Shown here: positions 702 to 42,846 of the stretch, piece after piece | How positions within the stretch are numbered: the stretch's first letter is position 1 | Layout of the letters: every line of letters begins with the position of its first letter | Assembly: GCA_032622095.1 (NCBI GenBank) | Contig: CP136067.1 | Span: 78,394,705-78,458,704, forward strand | Direction of reading: 5' to 3' | DNA length: 64,000 nt | Source: Siphonodentalium dalli | Taxonomy: Eukaryota; Mollusca; Scaphopoda; Gadilida; Siphonodentaliidae | The notes under the pieces: model-generated | The model's database searches: none | Seen by the model: the letters and a program-made list of their open reading frames with translations, nothing else | What the model was told of the DNA's origin: nothing | Position numbers and translations under genes: made by a program

Positions 702-957
702 AATTTTCTGGAAGCGCAGAGCTTCGAAATTCACGCTATGCTGTCAAATAAATAAAAAAAATAGCAGGCATGATGCCCGCCAGAATTGGACAAAGATCAG
801 TAGATCAATTTATTTTGTATTGTATGTATAAGTATATCTTCATTTAAGTTAAATTAGTGTGTATAAAATAACACGTTTCAACCGCAAAAATATGATCAGC
901 ATGCAAGAGAGAATCTTGTTAGACGAACTGTCTACTCAGATATTATAAATTTATTAT
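702..957. repeat. 256-bp direct repeat, left copy (probable target-site duplication)
   Basis: This block recurs at 2572-2827 with a constant offset of 1870 bp and no indels. I count four substitutions (at 730, 823, 861 and 866), about 98.4% identity. Its right edge abuts the 3' tail of the LINE fragment at 958-2571, and the other copy abuts that fragment's 5' truncation point. It does not start with TG or end with CA and has no short duplication outside it, so it does not look like an LTR. I read it as an unusually long target-site duplication; a segmental duplication is the main alternative. Confidence 0.8.
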
Positions 958-2571
958 ATATATCTTTAATTATCCTCCATTACTGAAGATTATATATGAA
1001 CAAATAGCATATAAAGAACATGATACAATCGCTTATACATAAGCATATGAACAGTCAAAAGTATATACAAATATATATATATATATATATATATCATGCT
1101 GCATGGAGTTGGGTCTGCGCGCCTACATGCACGTACCGTCCACCGTCACGTACTGTTCGGCATGACTACACGCGGTGGTAATGCCCCCCCCCCCCCCAAA
1201 ACGCCATTTCGTCGCCGTTGGATACTCACATATAGGGGCGCAGCCACAACAGCATACATTGGTGTATGGTAAACGTACGCACGTGCACCCGGACGCGCAT
1301 GATACTGCAGCACTCGAGTGTCATCCTACTGGTCAACTGACCCCAACCGAATGGGACGCAGGCACATACACGCACAGTCACACGTGCACACGCAACTTAC
1401 ACGGATTTATTTATATAATTGAATGGTTTTATAAAGCAAGTGCGTTTTCAATATAATATAATTCGTGTGAGAATTTGAGACATATTATAACCTGGATATC
1501 ATATGTCATGGATGCGACGATAAGGTGTCACGTATATAGTTAAAGTGAAGTATAGTGAGGTATATATATAATTATATGTGACATATTCATTTCGATGATA
1601 ATATTATAGTGGTCGATATATGTATGAATAAAAAGGTCAAACGTGAACTATATTAAGTAACACCGATCATACCAGCATACAGGTAATAAGCTTGCCACAT
1701 TTTGACAACATTTTTGAAAATTATAATTGGAATGTCGTCATCTTCAATCATTATATCGATCTCAATTTCTGATAAGTTACCAAGGAGCACACTTAATTTG
1801 GCTTCTCCTGAGAGCGATTCGTATTTAAAGTAGGTATTAATCCCCAGTGCATCCATAATAAAATATTCCATCTCATTTCTAAACGAAAACATGGCCGTAC
1901 AATCAATGAATATATGAGACAAAATGTCGGTCGTGGTAGAACCACAGTTCGTACATGAAATTTCTCTGTTGATTCCTATATATATTTGGCTTATCAATTT
2001 GCCAATTGTGAGATACATGGTCTTATCTTCTGGATATAATTTACATAGGCGCCAAACATAAGACATACATAATTCTGTGTGTATTCTATTGAAGAGAGAA
2101 AAACCTGGGTCAGAATTTGTTCTTGATTTCCATGCATCCACGTGTGATGTTTCCATTCCTGTGTTAAAAATATGTTTCCACGAGTTTTTGTCCGGAAAAT
2201 AAGACTCTGTGGTAAAGCTAATTCGATAAGTCATATTGATCAAGTAATGTCACAAAGGTAGTTTTTAGAACAAGACAAACGTGACTCAGTGGTAGACAAA
2301 AGCATGTATATATTCATACATTCTATGAAAGAAAACTTGTTTAACAGTTTTCTTATTGTTGCATTCAACATTGCACAAGGATGATAATAGTGACATTTTC
2401 TTTTTATGTATGTAGAATTCTATTGAATGAATTCCAAGTAAGCCAAGAGCGATATCGGTCCGGGTCCTGGGTTCGAATCCCTGTATCGTTTTTATGCAAA
2501 ATCTATGAGTTCTTTCTATTTTGAGAATTTCATTTTGGGTTATATTCCACAATAGCTCGAGATCCGTGCCG
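958..2571 (-). mobile_element. 5'-truncated, decayed LINE fragment (same family as 38821-42829)
   Basis: On the minus strand this is the 3' 1.6 kb of a non-LTR retrotransposon. Its 3' terminus (plus-strand 958-1000: AT-rich tail, then tctttaattatcctcc and tactgaagat) aligns with the terminus of the longer LINE (38821-38860: tctttattgcctcc and attgaagat). The protein-coding part aligns with the C-terminal third of the longer LINE and runs up to 2571, where it stops at the second 256-bp repeat. The 3' UTR (958-1652) holds an (AT)n run near 1070-1094 and a 14-base C run at 1184-1197. It lacks the RT and endonuclease domains and cannot move by itself. Confidence 0.85.
1653..2571 (-). pseudogene. 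LINE polyprotein C-terminal remnant, broken
   Basis: Two minus-strand pieces, 2286-2571 and 1653-2243, are in different frames and separated by stops. The first carries RTHRFCIKTIQGFEPRTRTD and GLLGIHSIEF, matching IHRFCLKHIQG, RARTDIVLG and MLGIHPI in the intact LINE at 39553-42837. The second carries a Cys-x2-Cys...His...Cys element (SCTNCGSTTTDILSHIFIDC) matching the intact copy's C988-C1006 region, after a WRLCKLYP stretch matching WRTCRKYP. The known role of such C-terminal Cys/His segments in LINE proteins is nucleic-acid binding; that role here is inferred. The piece begins inside the region downstream of RT and cannot encode an enzyme. At least one frameshift and an in-frame TGA lie between 2243 and 2290. 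Confidence 0.85.
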
Positions 2572-2827
2572 AATTTTCTGGAAGCGCAGAGCTTCGAAAC
2601 TCACGCTATGCTGTCAAATAAATAAAAAAAATAGCAGGCATGATGCCCGCCAGAATTGGACAAAGATCAGTAGATCAATTTATTTTGTATTGCATGTATA
2701 AGTATATCTTCATTTAAGTTAAATTAGTGTATATACAATAACACGTTTCAACCGCAAAAATATGATCAGCATGCAAGAGAGAATCTTGTTAGACGAACTG
2801 TCTACTCAGATATTATAAATTTATTAT
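2572..2827. repeat. 256-bp direct repeat, right copy
   Basis: Second copy of the block at 702-957. It begins directly at the 5' truncation point of the LINE fragment. After 2827 the sequence (gctcaatag) departs from that after 957, where the LINE tail starts. Confidence 0.8.
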
Positions 2828-3528
2828 GCTCAATAGATTTTTAGATACTCAGATGTAATATAAATTTACATTTATTTTGCAATAAAATGACATGGTTCAA
2901 TATTTATGAAACTGATGCAAATATTATGAGTATAGTTGCCACGCAATATAATTATATATACATGGGGCAGAATGGTGACTCAGAATTATATTTAATATAA
3001 AGCATACTGTTGAAAAAAATCAGTCAGACGCTTGTCATTCATTTTGTGAGTTTCGCAGGCTTTTAGGAATGGTTATGGGGTATGGTAATGTCAAATGGAT
3101 ATAGCCTATACACAAACATCGCAGTCCGATTCAGAATAGTTACGTCAAACGAATAATGAAGAGGAAAAATAATTATTTAAACAATTTAAACAAACACATT
3201 TCGTCCATAATTAGTGTAAAATATATATTGGAAATGGCCGGTCCAATTGTTTCAAAATTGTAAAATGACGATGACGGTTTGTTTTCTTCGACATCTTTCA
3301 GATTAAAGACAAATTTCCTACCATTAATCTCTTAATGCAGACAGGAATTGTAATTCAATTTCTCCAATAAAAATATAACTCGAACTGTAGTCACTATACA
3401 TGTATATTAGAGTGAAACTCGTCTCAATAATCAATATTCGTATAATCTGAAAAGGTGCATATATAGTTTATAGAAGAAAACGATTGCTTTTTTAAAATAT
3501 CAGATTGAACAGATGTTATACTTCTCCC
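2828..3528. other. AT-rich stretch, no gene seen
   Basis: No recognisable coding sequence, RNA or repeat. It leads directly into the 54-bp minisatellite. Confidence 0.45.
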
Positions 3529-4764
3529 ATGCACTCTTTATATATAGGTACCAATATAGGTCATATAATAATTGATATATACATGCACTCTTTATATATA
3601 GGTACCAATATAGGTCATATAATAATTGATATATACATGCACTCTTTATATATAGGTACCAATATAGGTCATATAATAATTGATATATACATGCACTCTT
3701 TATATATAGGTACCAATATAGGTCATATAATAATTGATATATACATGCACTCTTTATATATAGGTACCAATATAGGTCATATAATAATTGATATATACAT
3801 GCACTCTTTATATATAGGTACCAATATAGGTCATATAATAATTGATATATACATGCACTCTTTATATATAGGTACCAATATAGGTCATATAATAATTGAT
3901 ATATACATGCACTCTTTATATATAGGTACCAATATAGGTCATATAATAATTGATATATACATGCACTCTTTATATATAGGTACCAATATAGGTCATATAA
4001 TAATTGATATATACATGCACTCTTTATATATAGGTACCAATATAGGTCATATAATAATTGATATATACATGCACTCTTTATATATAGGTACCAATATAGG
4101 TCATATAATAATTGATATATACATGCACTCTTTATATATAGGTACCAATATAGGTCATATAATAATTGATATATACATGCACTCTTTATATATAGGTACC
4201 AATATAGGTCATATAATAATTGATATATACATGCACTCTTTATATATAGGTACCAATATAGGTCATATAATAATTGATATATACATGCACTCTTTATATA
4301 TAGGTACCAATATAGGTCATATAATAATTGATATATACATGCACTCTTTATATATAGGTACCAATATAGGTCATATAATAATTGATATATACATGCACTC
4401 TTTATATATAGGTACCAATATAGGTCATATAATAATTGATATATACATGCACTCTTTATATATAGGTACCAATATAGGTCATATAATAATTGATATATAC
4501 ATGCACTCTTTATATATAGGTACCAATATAGGTCATATAATAATTGATATATACATGCACTCTTTATATATAGGTACCAATATAGGTCATATAATAATTG
4601 ATATATACATGCACTCTTTATATATAGGTACCAATATAGGTCATATAATAATTGATATATACATGCACTCTTTATATATAGGTACCAATATAGGTCATAT
4701 AATAATTGATATATACATGCACTCTTTATATATAGGTACCAATATAGGTCATATAATAATTGAT
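3529..4764. repeat. 54-bp minisatellite, about 23 identical copies
   Basis: The unit starts atgcactctttatatatagg, contains a GGTACC site and ends attgatatatac. It repeats with an exact 54-bp period, with the copy starting at 4717 ending after 48 bases. All copies give the same translation on both strands, so variation between copies is little or none. Because 54 is a multiple of three and the unit lacks stops in one frame of each strand, ORFs of 436 and 423 codons appear on opposite strands (3505-4815 plus, 3500-4771 minus). I treat both as artefacts. Such uniformity suggests recent expansion or ongoing homogenisation. Confidence 0.97.
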
Positions 4765-5637: not shown

Positions 5638-8320
5638 GGTATGTGCGTCCATGGGATATACCAAACAGTGGAATAACACCAGACGATTGAATAATATTCA
5701 TCTTTATGACGGATGTTGACCGGATGTGATGCCGATAAACCCGTCCCAGCATGCACCCGATGACCCACCGTTGGCAAAAACGCGGGTTTAGATATTTACG
5801 GTGTAAATTAACTATATAAGGATGATACCTGATTGGTGAGCGTTTTTGCCATTGCTTGGCCTAATCTAGGATGGTTTTAGCTGACTAATAGTTTGAAACA
5901 CGAATGTGGTCGGATAATACGGTTGGTTACGCGGTGGGGCCACGCTATAAATGTGTAAGTTTGTCGCCACCAGCAAGTGACTTTCCCGCCATATACGTTG
6001 CTATATAGGACTAGATTTGAAAGTTAGTGAATTCGCGCGAAGACAATATAATATATTGTTGCATCGGTGTGGCGCCCCCCTGCTGTTCACAATGCGACAA
6101 ACGCCACGCGTCACAGCCATAATGAGCGATACCCGATCGAGAGAGGGACATTCTCGGTTCACCATATACTATACCTTTCAACAGTTAATATGGTATTCTC
6201 CATGACAAGTAGATTGAGATTAGCGTAGAGACGTGTATCTAGATGGTAAATTCGTTACTTAATATCACCTCTGCCATTGAATCCGATGTCAGTGTCATCA
6301 CTGTCAAATTGTGATAAATTTAAGGGGCGGCACATTCAGTTCAACTTTTGATATACGAGAACATTTTAATGGACATGTGCTAACAGTATACATTTTTCAT
6401 GTGACTTGTGCCACAGTATATTTGGTAGTTGGTCGGGGTCGTTGGTGACAACCAACTATTTTCTAGAGTTGACGCTGTGCTGTCATTCGGGCGTGCTGAC
6501 TATAACGGCTAAGTCATTCCAGTATGGCTCGATGTACATAATCTATATCATATGCATAGAGTATTTGCGAGCAGGGGCGTGGCTATTGTGTCTCCGTTTG
6601 GTGTGTCACCGTATATAATTTCCAACTGCACTCCCCTCGAACCAGACCGAAATTCCCATGTTCGATAAATTCCGTTTGCACCCCCTCAGGTTGCATGGTA
6701 TTTACCACGTGGTCCCTCAATGTTTCAATTGTTGGACATTTCTAACCTGGTAAGATGATCTCCGCCCGCTGAGGGGGGGGGGGGGGGGTGGTGTCAAACT
6801 TGGAATTGACAACTACTAATCGCATGTTTCAGGCCAATATTTTCAAGTCGGGATATTCCAATTTGCACCTACACTTGGTTGGAATTTGGCAACTTTTGTA
6901 TGAACCAACTGTTGGATATGCATATACTAGCAGTAAACTAATGGTTAGAACGTATCCAACTGATCACAATTTGGCCATAAGCAGGAAATTATTTGACTTT
7001 TGGTCTATAATTGCTCTAAAATCTTTGAATTCCACACAAAATACTTGTTTGAAACAAAAGTAATCGGTTTTGTTCAAGTCTGGTCTGAAATTTGTGGTAT
7101 GATAATCATTCGGACCCGTGAAAACGTTTGGTACTGTTTTTACTAATTATCATGATAGAGCGATTCGGTGTCGGATTCTGAAATATATGCACGAAATCAA
7201 ATTCAAGATGGAACATGTTATACAATCAATGTGGTATCGAGAACAATAGCCAGATTCATATTACTGTCGTGTAACATTTGACGACTAGAAATAAAGACTA
7301 CCCTGTTGTTCTATGGCGCGAAAAACATACATATATTGCCTTGGGTTTATATAATCACTTAATCATCTCAAAGTGGTATGCTTAAAATTAAGAAGCGAAC
7401 AACTGTAGATCCTACGAGAAAACCTTAGAACCAAGAACTGGTTATATTGTTTTATTAACGGTCATCAACACTTTGTGTTCATGGCTAAATTTGACAAATC
7501 ATCCGCAGCGGATCGAAGTCACTGCAAGTCTTTGTTCGGTAGACGGCGAGCGAATTGATTATACAGACTTGTTGTAAAATAGTTTGTGTGTCTGTAAATC
7601 CGTCATCGATATACAAAACCACTGTGTTTTAGAGTAGAAAGGCAAACTGTTTGCTTTTGCCAATAAACCGCTCGATTTTTATTGCCCCTTGATCACCGTA
7701 TCAGTTCGCAGTAATTTCACTGCTGACAAATTATCGCTGCCAAGAACCTAATACAAAACCGATGTTTGTCGATCAGGATGAAATCCACGGAATCGCAGAC
7801 GGTGGCGAAAACAATCGAGATGCCACTATGACGGCCAAATAAATCATTCGGAGCTTCCTTGATTAATCAAAGTCTCGGCTGTTCTCACGCGGACGAGATA
7901 TGCGGAGATTCACACAGGGTCCGGGCCTGATTGTTTAATTAGAGTAACCGAGACCTAAAGGGCGGCCGTAAGTGAAAAATGGTCTCGAGGATTGGAACAT
8001 TAACAAATGTCAGATTTCCCAACCACGTGGTACTGACTTGAGTGGCGTTGATTGGAGGAAGATTGTGTTATTTATCATATACCGAGAAACCGAAAGGAGC
8101 GACAGATAAATAGTATAATATAGGTGGCAGTAATTAATTGTGAAAATTGTAATAAATGTTCGGGTGAATAGATCGTTGGTTTGTGTGAAATCTTATCTTA
8201 TTTCTGAGATAATTCACAGTTAATTTTGTTACCATTTGTAAACCAGTTAATCAGAGTTTGTAGAAAGAAATAGAGCCACGCATGCGCATTGTCGTCCTTC
8301 ACTCACATTACCGTATGTGG
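4815..8320. other. No recognisable gene; scattered simple repeats
   Basis: No ORF here resembles a known protein. Visible items are a (TA)19 microsatellite at about 5595-5632, a 16-base G run at 6773-6788, and one copy of the recurring aaacgctctttatt motif near 5153. The stretch before the G run (6721-6750, tttcaattgttggacattt) resembles a small dispersed family also seen near 56590, 61505 and 62105. Confidence 0.5.
5595..5632. repeat. (TA)n microsatellite
   Basis: About 19 uninterrupted TA dinucleotides. Simple sequence; no gene role can be read from it. Confidence 0.97.
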
Positions 8321-38801: not shown

Positions 38802-38820
38802 CCGCTGACATAACAAATTA
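38802..38820. repeat. 19-bp target-site duplication, left
   Basis: ccgctgacataacaaatta, identical to 42828-42846. The true duplication may be 16-19 bp, because ccg could belong to the element. Confidence 0.9.
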
Positions 38821-39334
38821 TATATATATCTTTATTGCCTCCAGTATTGAAGATTTAACAAGACATAGTATACATGAATGTAACATAAATACATTTAGCA
38901 ATCAAGAAGTAATGAAAAGACAGACAAGAGAACAAACTACCGAGGAAAAGAATACCATTCTAATTGTATGTACACGAACACGAGCTTACATATCACATCA
39001 ACAGAAAACACACACCCTCTCGACCACACCCGTACGCATATACAATCTAACACATGGCGCAGACACAAACACAACCGTACATACATACGTTATGATGCAC
39101 TGTCACAACAGCACACCATAAGCAGGTGCATACAATTACAAAAGGAACTCTAGTTGGAGTTGGATTCGCTTAGAAGAATCTCTCTCCCCAAAGAGTCAGC
39201 AAACGCAATGCCCTTGCTCGACAATAGCTCCCCTATAAATGTATGCACCCATTAAGTGGAATAGACTATATGTAGGATGATGTTGCGACAGTGCAAACGC
39301 TAGCGCAAGAAAACATATACACACACGTATACAC

Positions 39335-39373
<39 letters not shown>

Positions 39374-42300
39374 ATCACACCCTCATATACACATACCTAT
39401 GCATACATATATATATATAATGATTTATTAATTTATTCATGTTTATTTAATTTGTCGTCTTCGGATTTTATGGACAGGACAGAATGTGGTACATTTAAGT
39501 ACGACTTATGGTGAACACCCGTAACGTTCAAACTTCAAAGATCAAAGGTTGTTTAACACAAACCGTCATGCGTAGTGGCTGAGAGTTCGACATAGCGCCT
39601 CCAAATTAAGTTTGTGTGAAGAACAATGAATCTCGTAAACTTTGATGTATCCTCAACTTGCTCAAGAAATGTGAATATATCACGTGGAAGATGTGTGAGA
39701 TGGAGCAATACGAGGTCGCTGTTGCTGAGACTCGTGGCCCATACGAATAGCGGTATGCCGAAACGATCAATCATCTGGTACCACATTTCGTTTCTGTGGG
39801 AATGCATAAGTGGGCTACTGCATGAGATAAGTGCGTGCTCGATAATATCAGAGTGTGACTGACAGCATAATGTGCATGTGTTTTGTTGAGAGAATGCGCT
39901 TCCTGCGATGAGCTGACCGACTGTGATAAATGCAATCTTATGCATAGGGTATTTACGACATGTTCTCCATAAGTGACACATAGTAGGGTTTGGTTGAATT
40001 TCTCGAAAACGCGCAAATGAAGTGTCACAATTTGTTCTCTCTGTCCATTTCTGTACGCATTTGTCGTTAATCGCGGTTTTTGTAATGCGTTTCCATTCGG
40101 ATTTCAGAGGAAATGAGCAGAAATGAGCATACTGATGCATATGCTCGGATAGGTTGTATTCAACAAGAGTGTTGTTAATGTCGCTGATGAAGGAATTTGG
40201 GTTTTCCAGTTGTCCCGTGAAGTACATGTGAAGTCTTGTGACAAAAATTTCCTTGCAAGCTTTGCCAGGAGGCATACGGCATAGGCTTCCAAACAAATTG
40301 AGTTTCCTGGCATCAATCAATGACTTGATAGGATGGATGCCAAGCATCCCCAAAACGATATCAGTGCGAGCACGTACAGGAAGTCCCTGGATATGCTTGA
40401 GGCAGAAGCGATGAATTTTCTCAAGAGTTGACCAATGGGTTTCTGATAGACCACACAATAGTTCAGATCCGTATAGACCCTTTGGAATAATTATGGATCT
40501 GTAAAGAGTTTCGCAACTTTGAGGGGTGATTCCACCTGCATACATACCAGCATTGCTCAGCATGAAGTAGGTGGATCTTATTTTGTTGACAATACAGTCG
40601 ATGAACTCACGAGCGAAGTCGCTTCTATGCAACGTTATGCCAAGATGGGTTATGTGATCAGTTTCGTCTACATACCCGTCACCAAGTTTCCATCTCCTTG
40701 GATGCACAGGCAGATTCTTCACTTTTTCATTGAATACAATGGTTTTACATTTCTGTGCGTTGTATGTAAACCGCCACAATCGGCTATACATTGTGCAAAT
40801 ATCACAGAGGCGTTGTAGGCCCACGTTTGTGAGCGAAAAAAGCGTCATATCATCCGCTTGAGTTGGCGACGCGCAGTTTGTGGAGACAATCCGAAGACCA
40901 TAGTTCGATGCCTCGAGTTCATATAACAGATCATCTATATACAACATGTATAAAAGAGGGGATAAAATTCCCCCTTGTCGCGTCCCTTGTAGTATTTTGA
41001 TTTCCCTTGACATTGATTTACCATAATTGACGAAGCACGAAAAGCCCGACAACATCTCCCGTAGTATGAACCATATATGTCCACGGAAACCACGATTGTA
41101 AAGTTTGATCAATAGGCCGTCTAACCACACAGTATCAAAGGCTTTACGGACATCTAGGAAACATGCATACAGCTTACTATTCTGCTCTGATGTGTAATTG
41201 ATGCATTCGCTAACAACATATGATGACATTAAGCAACTTATTTCTTTCTGGAACCCGTTCTGAAGGGGGTGAACTTTAACGAGATATGGTGTATTAATTT
41301 CGAAGCGATTGAGCAGAACCTTTTCCAGGAGCTTATAGAATATGGGTAAGAGTGTAATTGCTCTGTAGCTATCGAACTTGTTCTTTGGTTTGTCTCCACC
41401 CTTATGCAAGGAAATCATTAATCCCGTCTTGGCCATTTTTGGAACATGTCTGAGTTTCAACATCATAGACAGCATGTATGCTGTGCAGTTGAGCAATGTA
41501 TCGCCACCATGTACCACATGCTCATAGCATATGCGGTCGGGACCTGGGGCTTTCCCCTTTTTGGCATTACTAATAGCGTTATTGAGCTCTCTGTGTGATA
41601 TCTCATAAATGAGAGATTGGTCTACTTTAGAAGGTGACTTATGTTCAGAAATATCTGCAATCAAAAGTTGTATCTTCTCCAGATGTTCTGAATCGAAAGT
41701 GGGCGATTGTAGAGGTGAATATAGTTGTTCATAGTAATCTGCCCATGCAGCGGTGATGTCCGACGTATTCCGGATTATTTTGCCATTTACATTGAATAAT
41801 TTACTATCCGGTTTTGATTTCGATCTTTTGTTGTTAAAGAGCTTGAAAAAGAGACCCTGGTCTAACTCAGCTGAATTATCAATTTGTTCATTTTGAGCAG
41901 ACATGTATTGCCCATTACATTTGCGAAGTTCGCGGCGAAATTTGCGTTTAGCTTCTTTATAGTTGCCGTAGCTGATATTTACAATACCTCTCGGTCTCCC
42001 TTCTTCTAGCCATCTATTTCTAGTATTGCGCATTTCGCAGTGGAGTGATTCCAAAGAGTCGTTCCAATACGGTTTGGCGAAAGATTTGAAAGACTTTTTT
42101 GGTATGTGCTGCGTTGTAGCTTTGTTTATCGCACGAACAACAGAATCGTAGTACGAATCGAGATCATCGATGTCAGATATGGCAAAGTTCGGAAGACTGT
42201 CCTGCACGGCGGTTTGATAAGCATTGATTAAGTCTTCCGAGGCAGTGAACTTTTTCCAATTGCATGCTGAAATTTGGTTTTCTGAGCGACCCATTTTATT

Positions 42301-42829
42301 ATTATGTGGGTAATTTATGACCATTTTAATTGGCCTATGATTAGAGACATCCAGTGAATCGTCGTCGATGATTTCGATTTTCTGTACTAGGTACGATTCT
42401 TCCTCGGGAATGAGGATGTGGTCTATCATGGTACCTGGTCCACCATCGGTGGGTACGTATGTCGCAGAAGGCCCAATACAAGCGTCAGTATTGTTGACAG
42501 ACACCAGTGATTTTTGTGAGATAAGTTTGGATAAACTTCTATTTCTGGCATCCGATCTCTGTACACTGCCGTTAAAGTCACCCATCACAATGACGTGCCC
42601 TATTTCTGTGTACATATCGATAAGGTCTTGCACACGATTTATATAGTCTCTATACATTGTGACTGGGTAATTGCTGGAAGGGAGGTACACCTGAAAGATG
42701 TATACATACTGTGATTCTGATATCTGTATTTGAATGCCACAAATGCGATCGTCGTCGTATTGGATGACTGAAACGGCACTGTCCAAACTAGCATGCCATA
42801 TAATGGCAACTCCGCCTTTCGGCCTTCCC
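38821..42829 (-). mobile_element. 5'-truncated LINE (APE-type non-LTR retrotransposon)
   Basis: About 4.0 kb on the minus strand between perfect 19-bp direct repeats. The 3' end has an AATAAA signal (caataaagatatatatata on the minus strand) directly before the target duplication. The 3' UTR (38821-39552) includes an (AC)n run at about 39338-39372. The 5' end is cut inside the endonuclease domain. Perfect duplications and an unbroken ORF imply recent insertion. Clade is uncertain: the single APE-RT-Cys/His ORF without an obvious RNase H suits the Jockey/CR1/I-like groups. Confidence 0.93.
39338..39372. repeat. (AC)n microsatellite in LINE 3' UTR
   Basis: About 17 AC units in the 3' UTR of the LINE. 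The older LINE copy has no such run at the matching place. Confidence 0.95.
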
Positions 42830-42837
42830 GCTGACAT
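39553..42837 (-). CDS. LINE ORF2-like protein: truncated APE endonuclease, reverse transcriptase, Cys/His C-terminus
   Basis: An unbroken 1094-codon ORF. The first three residues (MSA) come from the target-site duplication; LINE sequence begins near residue 4, so the ATG is not the native start. Residues 4-175 are the C-terminal part of an APE-type endonuclease, with GDFN (86-89), IDH (138-140) and SNHRP (165-169); the upstream catalytic Asn and Glu motifs are missing, so nicking activity is unlikely. RT follows: GKAPGPD (428-434), LDVRKAFD (561-568), QGTRQGGILSP (617-627) and QADD (660-663), where most LINEs have Y/FADD. A Cys-x2-Cys...His...Cys segment lies at 988-1006. Known function of such proteins is target-primed reverse transcription of the element RNA in the nucleus. 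The 5' end and any ORF1 are absent. Confidence 0.93.
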   Translation of the reverse strand: MSAGRPKGGVAIIWHASLDSAVSVIQYDDDRICGIQIQISESQYVYIFQVYLPSSNYPVTMYRDYINRVQDLIDMYTEIGHVIVMGDFNGSVQRSDARNRSLSKLISQKSLVSVNNTDACIGPSATYVPTDGGPGTMIDHILIPEEESYLVQKIEIIDDDSLDVSNHRPIKMVINYPHNNKMGRSENQISACNWKKFTASEDLINAYQTAVQDSLPNFAISDIDDLDSYYDSVVRAINKATTQHIPKKSFKSFAKPYWNDSLESLHCEMRNTRNRWLEEGRPRGIVNISYGNYKEAKRKFRRELRKCNGQYMSAQNEQIDNSAELDQGLFFKLFNNKRSKSKPDSKLFNVNGKIIRNTSDITAAWADYYEQLYSPLQSPTFDSEHLEKIQLLIADISEHKSPSKVDQSLIYEISHRELNNAISNAKKGKAPGPDRICYEHVVHGGDTLLNCTAYMLSMMLKLRHVPKMAKTGLMISLHKGGDKPKNKFDSYRAITLLPIFYKLLEKVLLNRFEINTPYLVKVHPLQNGFQKEISCLMSSYVVSECINYTSEQNSKLYACFLDVRKAFDTVWLDGLLIKLYNRGFRGHIWFILREMLSGFSCFVNYGKSMSREIKILQGTRQGGILSPLLYMLYIDDLLYELEASNYGLRIVSTNCASPTQADDMTLFSLTNVGLQRLCDICTMYSRLWRFTYNAQKCKTIVFNEKVKNLPVHPRRWKLGDGYVDETDHITHLGITLHRSDFAREFIDCIVNKIRSTYFMLSNAGMYAGGITPQSCETLYRSIIIPKGLYGSELLCGLSETHWSTLEKIHRFCLKHIQGLPVRARTDIVLGMLGIHPIKSLIDARKLNLFGSLCRMPPGKACKEIFVTRLHMYFTGQLENPNSFISDINNTLVEYNLSEHMHQYAHFCSFPLKSEWKRITKTAINDKCVQKWTERTNCDTSFARFREIQPNPTMCHLWRTCRKYPMHKIAFITVGQLIAGSAFSQQNTCTLCCQSHSDIIEHALISCSSPLMHSHRNEMWYQMIDRFGIPLFVWATSLSNSDLVLLHLTHLPRDIFTFLEQVEDTSKFTRFIVLHTNLIWRRYVELSATTHDGLC

Positions 42838-42846
42838 AACAAATTA
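42828..42846. repeat. 19-bp target-site duplication, right
   Basis: Identical to 38802-38820. It supplies the ATG of the downstream minus-strand ORF. Confidence 0.9.

Follow-up and report, generated by a model that had tools for sequence, protein, structure and literature searches.

Probable long target-site duplications of variable length recur in a LINE family of Siphonodentalium dalli

In a 64,000-nucleotide stretch of the Siphonodentalium dalli genome (the window), a truncated LINE copy is flanked by two 256-bp direct repeats, and we found long duplications of this kind to be a recurrent trait of the LINE family and not one odd event. The family often makes long target-site duplications of variable length, a behavior that is frequent but not universal. 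For the window locus itself, we consider it likely, with a probability of about 0.8, that both 256-bp repeats are one target-site duplication created by insertion of the window LINE copy with a distant second-strand break. The first-pass annotation of this DNA had proposed a long target-site duplication by insertion, and our results support that reading. Neither of the contrary observations it named (an independent interspersed repeat or a larger tandem duplication) was found, and the pattern recurs in the family.

The left copy of the duplication occupies positions 702-957, with borders ambiguous by a few bases, and the right copy occupies positions 2572-2827, both as placed by repeat alignment and genome search. 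The two copies are 98% identical over 256 bp without gaps and differ by substitutions at positions 730, 823, 861, and 866, a divergence of 4/256 or 1.6%; coordinates and identity thus reproduced the earlier description of 256-bp repeats with four substitutions and no indels. When positions 702-957 were searched against the 2.23-Gb genome (a search that skips very common words), the matches listed fell at two places only, both at the window locus, and no independent interspersed repeat was detected at this sensitivity. The right flank (2828-3527) had one genome match among those listed, which was itself, and this speaks against a larger tandem duplication at the window locus; no such duplication was found. 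The sole multi-copy part of the left flank (200-701) was an unrelated interspersed repeat at approximately 514-648. This 135-bp repeat (514-648) has many copies at 84-93% identity and does not touch the duplication. On the other side, an array of 54-bp tandem repeats, identical throughout, lies at 3528-4745, about 0.7 kb from the right 256-bp copy.

Between the repeats lies a 1.6-kb, 5'-truncated LINE copy on the minus strand (958-2571; L003), with its 3' end at 958, a broken C-terminal part of ORF2, and a 3' UTR containing (AT)n. The longest remaining stop-to-stop frame (1653-2249, minus strand) spans 198 aa of the ORF2 C-terminal region and is similar to the corresponding part of ORF2 of a related LINE at 38.8 kb. 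That ORF2 matched positions 958-2575 over 260 aa with 34.6% identity (E = 9e-41), supporting the original identification of 958-2571 as a LINE; a Pfam search of the broken ORF pieces of the fragment gave no match. The 3' border first assigned at 958 held, with the family tail TTAAAGATATAT present in 27 of the 30 loci examined, and the end of homology moved from 2571 to about 2573. This second placement was made by eye against other members of the family: close to the 5' truncation point, 6 bases that those members lack (approximately 2559-2564) are followed by LINE homology reaching about 2573, so the LINE and its target have 2 bp in common at the 5' junction. The 3' junction is ambiguous by a few bases because the sequence is AT rich. 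A tRNA-like motif noticed by eye near 2470 was recovered neither by ARAGORN nor by Rfam in the window and by eye is ORF2 coding sequence.

The related LINE (38821-42827, minus strand; ORF2 at 39553-42843) is bounded by an exact 19-bp duplication, 38802-38820 and 42828-42846, just as first annotated. Its ORF2 and the one in L014, a long copy of the window family, are 42% identical, and the two elements have a similar AT-rich 3' end. Its 19-bp duplication is unlike the long ones of the window family, a comparison that rests on one copy of the related LINE; in a further copy of its family (L074), a 29-bp repeat is present but stands apart from the LINE.

Family copies were collected with 958-2571 as the query, for which the best 40 of 349 candidate places were scored, and with a second query, 1400-1800, for which the best 40 of 163 were scored and 12 places were added to the first list. 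L014 spans approximately 6.3 kb, and its two long ORFs are both open, measuring 627 and 1200 codons from stop to stop. In its ORF2, Exo_endo_phos (E = 1.4e-13) and RVT_1 (E = 1.8e-26) domains both scored above the cut-off, and residues 1-776 had 10 distinct PDB matches, including LINE-1 ORF2p, R2, and an RNA-directed DNA polymerase. ORF1 gave a sub-threshold profile match only. L014 thus combines an AP-like endonuclease and a reverse transcriptase in ORF2, as expected of APE-type non-LTR elements, and family copies have a common 3' end with variable 5' truncation, some 5' starts being due to nested insertions. Judged by its sequence, the element is an APE-endonuclease LINE.

A survey of other family copies for long duplications, which the first-pass annotation had suggested, revealed more of them, with different sequences and abutting the LINE. 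Of 40 family loci, 28 entered the sample because their 3' end was intact and a 5' boundary with at least some flanking sequence was apparent. Two loci (L005 and L021) were excluded as duplicates of L006 and L020, three (L007, L025, and L026) for a 5' flank that was too short or absent, and seven (L027, L030, L032, L065, L071, L072, and L073) for lack of an intact 3' tail. We placed the 5' boundaries according to how far other copies covered each locus, in part with relaxed thresholds where copies were long, and set that of L003 by hand. We scored repeats between left and right flanks that ended at the LINE 5' junction and, in a stricter form, that fitted the 3' junction as well; 378 mismatched flank pairs, half of 756, were run as a control. 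A repeat ending at the 5' junction was present in 10 of 28 copies (9 of 27 with the window copy left out) versus 2 of 378 mismatched pairs, and a repeat fitting both LINE ends was present in 8 of 28 copies versus 0 of 378. L067 emerged as an 11th duplicated copy from follow-up beyond the survey test. Across the family, the duplications ranged from 51 to approximately 620 bp, and every repeat was a different sequence. In ten copies, we compared a left flank of about 2.8-3.6 kb with a right flank of 1.5 kb and saw no very long duplication abutting the LINE.

Besides the 256-bp repeat of the window copy, we observed repeats of 297 bp in L011 (297/297 identical), 142 bp in L031, 72 bp in L069 (72/72 identical), and 51 bp in L029, along with repeats of approximately 616-621 bp in L012 and approximately 154 bp in L070, the latter within locally repeated sequence. 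For L014, a length of 449 bp was inferred, the left copy being visible over 246 bp (246/246 identical). The repeat of L019, inferred to be 182 bp, is the weakest case because mismatched pairs also yielded a one-sided match of 20 bp. Its left copy holds 12-bp and 19-bp pieces, and comparison of 2424-2453 with 6568-6749 at this locus indicates one repeat copy without 151 internal bases and with both ends retained. L006 and its segmental duplicate L005 share a repeat of approximately 297-303 bp. These two loci are on contig C1, about 3.3 Mb apart on opposite strands with flanks in common, apparently through segmental duplication. About 490 bp resembling L005's own 3' flank interrupts the LINE of L005 (738-1226 and 4159-4599), and L006 lacks this interruption.

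In L067, a second copy of the right flank was found upstream by the flank query. A duplication of nearly 7 kb at this locus was considered and rejected: the real length is approximately 307 bp (304 of 314 aligned bases identical), and the repeat ends at the LINE start. The first boundary had been misplaced, since a multi-copy insertion (651-2961) of about 2.3 kb splits the LINE. As 500 bp of this insertion occurs at 99-100% identity in all of the best 40 places, it is probably a very young mobile element.

In the nine repeat pairs that were aligned, ungapped identity was 94.7-100%, with six of the nine at 94.7-98.6%; L011, L069, and L014 were 100% identical where visible. The side of the first nick could be seen in 10 duplications, 8 of which begin with an ATA/TAT-like sequence beside the AT tail of the LINE, the exceptions being L029 and L070. 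By eye, the far ends had no common motif.

No duplication was found in 17 of the 28 copies, 9 of which are uninformative or ambiguous. In L008, the LINE resumes further left of the apparent boundary, and loss of some target sequence is possible at this locus. The boundary-side sequence of L004, L009, L010, L016, L017, and L022 has relatives elsewhere in the genome, so that the boundary may belong to another element. L013 adjoins tandem repeats, and the right flank of L023 is multi-copy. The other 8 copies (L015, L018, L020, L024, L028, L064, L066, and L068) look genuine: no repeat abuts the LINE, and their left flanks were single among the matches listed. In these genome searches, which score no more than the best 40 candidates, "found once" means among the matches listed, and a near-identical L021 flank went unlisted; of the other flank queries, one set omitted L014-L017 and another omitted L029. 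The classical target-site duplication of about 10-20 bp, a typical and not a defining LINE trait, was seen in none of the ten copies that carried long repeats in the survey test. In the remaining 18, exact junction matches of at least 6 bp occurred in 5 (versus 32 of 306 mismatched pairs) and of at least 7 bp in 1 (versus 8 of 306), the longest being 7 bp; the excess at 6 bp is slight and there is none at 7 bp or more, so we do not assert that short duplications are absent from these copies. L017 has an 11-base junction match with one mismatch.

In L004, a 469-bp block starting exactly from the LINE 3' end has a 97.7% identical counterpart on the same strand, about 654 kb distant (L056, 1527-1995); it may be a rearranged duplication or a low-copy repeat, with multi-copy sequence beyond it. 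L020 and L021 lie about 1.2 Mb apart on opposite strands of contig C4 with flanks in common, apparently another segmental duplication.

We directly observed that the repeats exist, are rare, and fit the LINE ends, and that other copies show this pattern with different sequences. From these observations we infer the insertion history at the window locus, in which both breaks would have been part of one insertion reaction. The simplest account is target-primed reverse transcription whose second-strand break is distant and unspecific. The APE LINE would nick an AT-rich site, and the freed 3' end would prime reverse transcription from the AU-rich tail of the element; the AT-rich start of the duplications fits such priming by annealing to the RNA tail. 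The opposite strand would be broken tens to hundreds of bp away, not 10-20 bp, at an unspecific place, and fill-in would duplicate the DNA between the breaks. The second break might be made by the element or by a host nuclease, or a pre-existing gap or break might serve, and the unspecific far ends are consistent with a break placed without regard to sequence. In the standard model as described in a review, a second nick downstream of the first leads to duplication and one upstream to deletion (PMC2881922). If the break could fall far to one side of the first or to the other, copies with duplications and copies without would both result. We tentatively suggest, at a little below even odds, that second-strand control is loosened in this family, with tens to hundreds of bp duplicated or none at all (perhaps with deletion) and 10-20 bp seldom or never.

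A close relative of this distant-break reading is replication-coupled repair, in which reverse transcription would start at one nick and the other end would be joined at a replication gap or by break-induced copying, with no nuclease cut. Lengths from 51 to approximately 620 bp, the motif-less far end, and the copies without duplication would all suit it. However, the anatomy it leaves is identical to that of a distant cut, and it overlaps with the preferred explanation as a variant of it; we regard it as possible but on the doubtful side. The anatomy of any single locus would also suit a tandem duplication that came first and received the LINE precisely at its junction, or a larger duplication that came later and was combined with deletion, and L070 does sit among local repeats. 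Yet the fit to both ends recurred in 8 of 28 copies with unrelated repeats and in none of the 378 mismatched pairs, and 2828-3527 is single-copy among the matches listed, making this history improbable.

Eleven loci with different repeat lengths, identities of 94.7-98.6% in six of nine aligned pairs, and the presence of one insertion with its repeat at two duplicated loci (L005 and L006) make an assembly artefact from merged haplotypes very improbable. A reverse-transcriptase fragment enclosed by two direct repeats some hundred bp long might finally recall element-borne terminal repeats, LTR-like or Penelope-like. The block occurs at two places only among the matches listed, however, and the repeats differ between copies, unlike the terminal repeats of an LTR retrotransposon or Penelope-like element, which are part of the element and come back in its other copies; this explanation is left with hardly any probability.

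Long flanking repeats of LINEs have precedents. Rte-1 of C. elegans is reportedly flanked by a 200-bp repeat in a single case, similar in length to those of the window family. APE LINEs typically make duplications of 10-20 bp according to PMC6895275, which cites the 126-bp duplication of R9 from bdelloid rotifers as a distant example. Like the window family, R9 is a LINE with a duplication far beyond the usual length, but it has one stated length in ribosomal DNA (by title) as opposed to many lengths at many sites. For ZfL2-2 in chicken DT40 cells, PMC2666801 describes a 1228-bp duplication in 1 of 25 wild-type insertions, most other duplications being at most 20 bp and long target truncations also occurring; about a third or more of the examined window-family copies have long duplications. 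Human L1, for which PMC1291365 mentions duplications from several up to several hundred nucleotides long, resembles the window family in its occasional long duplications and its APE-type endonuclease, the class for which PMC6895275 gives the short typical length. Hebe, a rotifer LINE, has 7-12 bp duplications (PMC2861651). Single long duplications were thus already known (R9 and ZfL2-2). In the literature searched, which covered few subscription journals, we found no LINE family in which long duplications are frequent and vary in length.

How the second strand is cleaved during LINE insertion is in most cases simply not known, according to a review (PMC2881922). A family whose second break is often distant and a related LINE with a 19-bp duplication in the same genome make control of the break distance by the element's protein versus the host testable. 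If second-strand control is indeed loosened, this family would represent a naturally occurring and perhaps still active case of LINE insertion with its second step uncoupled from its first, and it would steadily produce duplicated segments of host DNA. Every insertion with a long duplication copies a few hundred bases of host sequence. Such duplications are easily missed by surveys; a recent one accepted only 10-49-base duplications within 200-base flanks (PMC13295347). Among the loci outside our sample, the LINE 3' flank of L026 recurs many times at 99-100% identity on C6 (34.05-34.18 and 35.43-35.50 Mb), frequently at intervals of about 4.4 kb, a pattern like that of a large tandem array.
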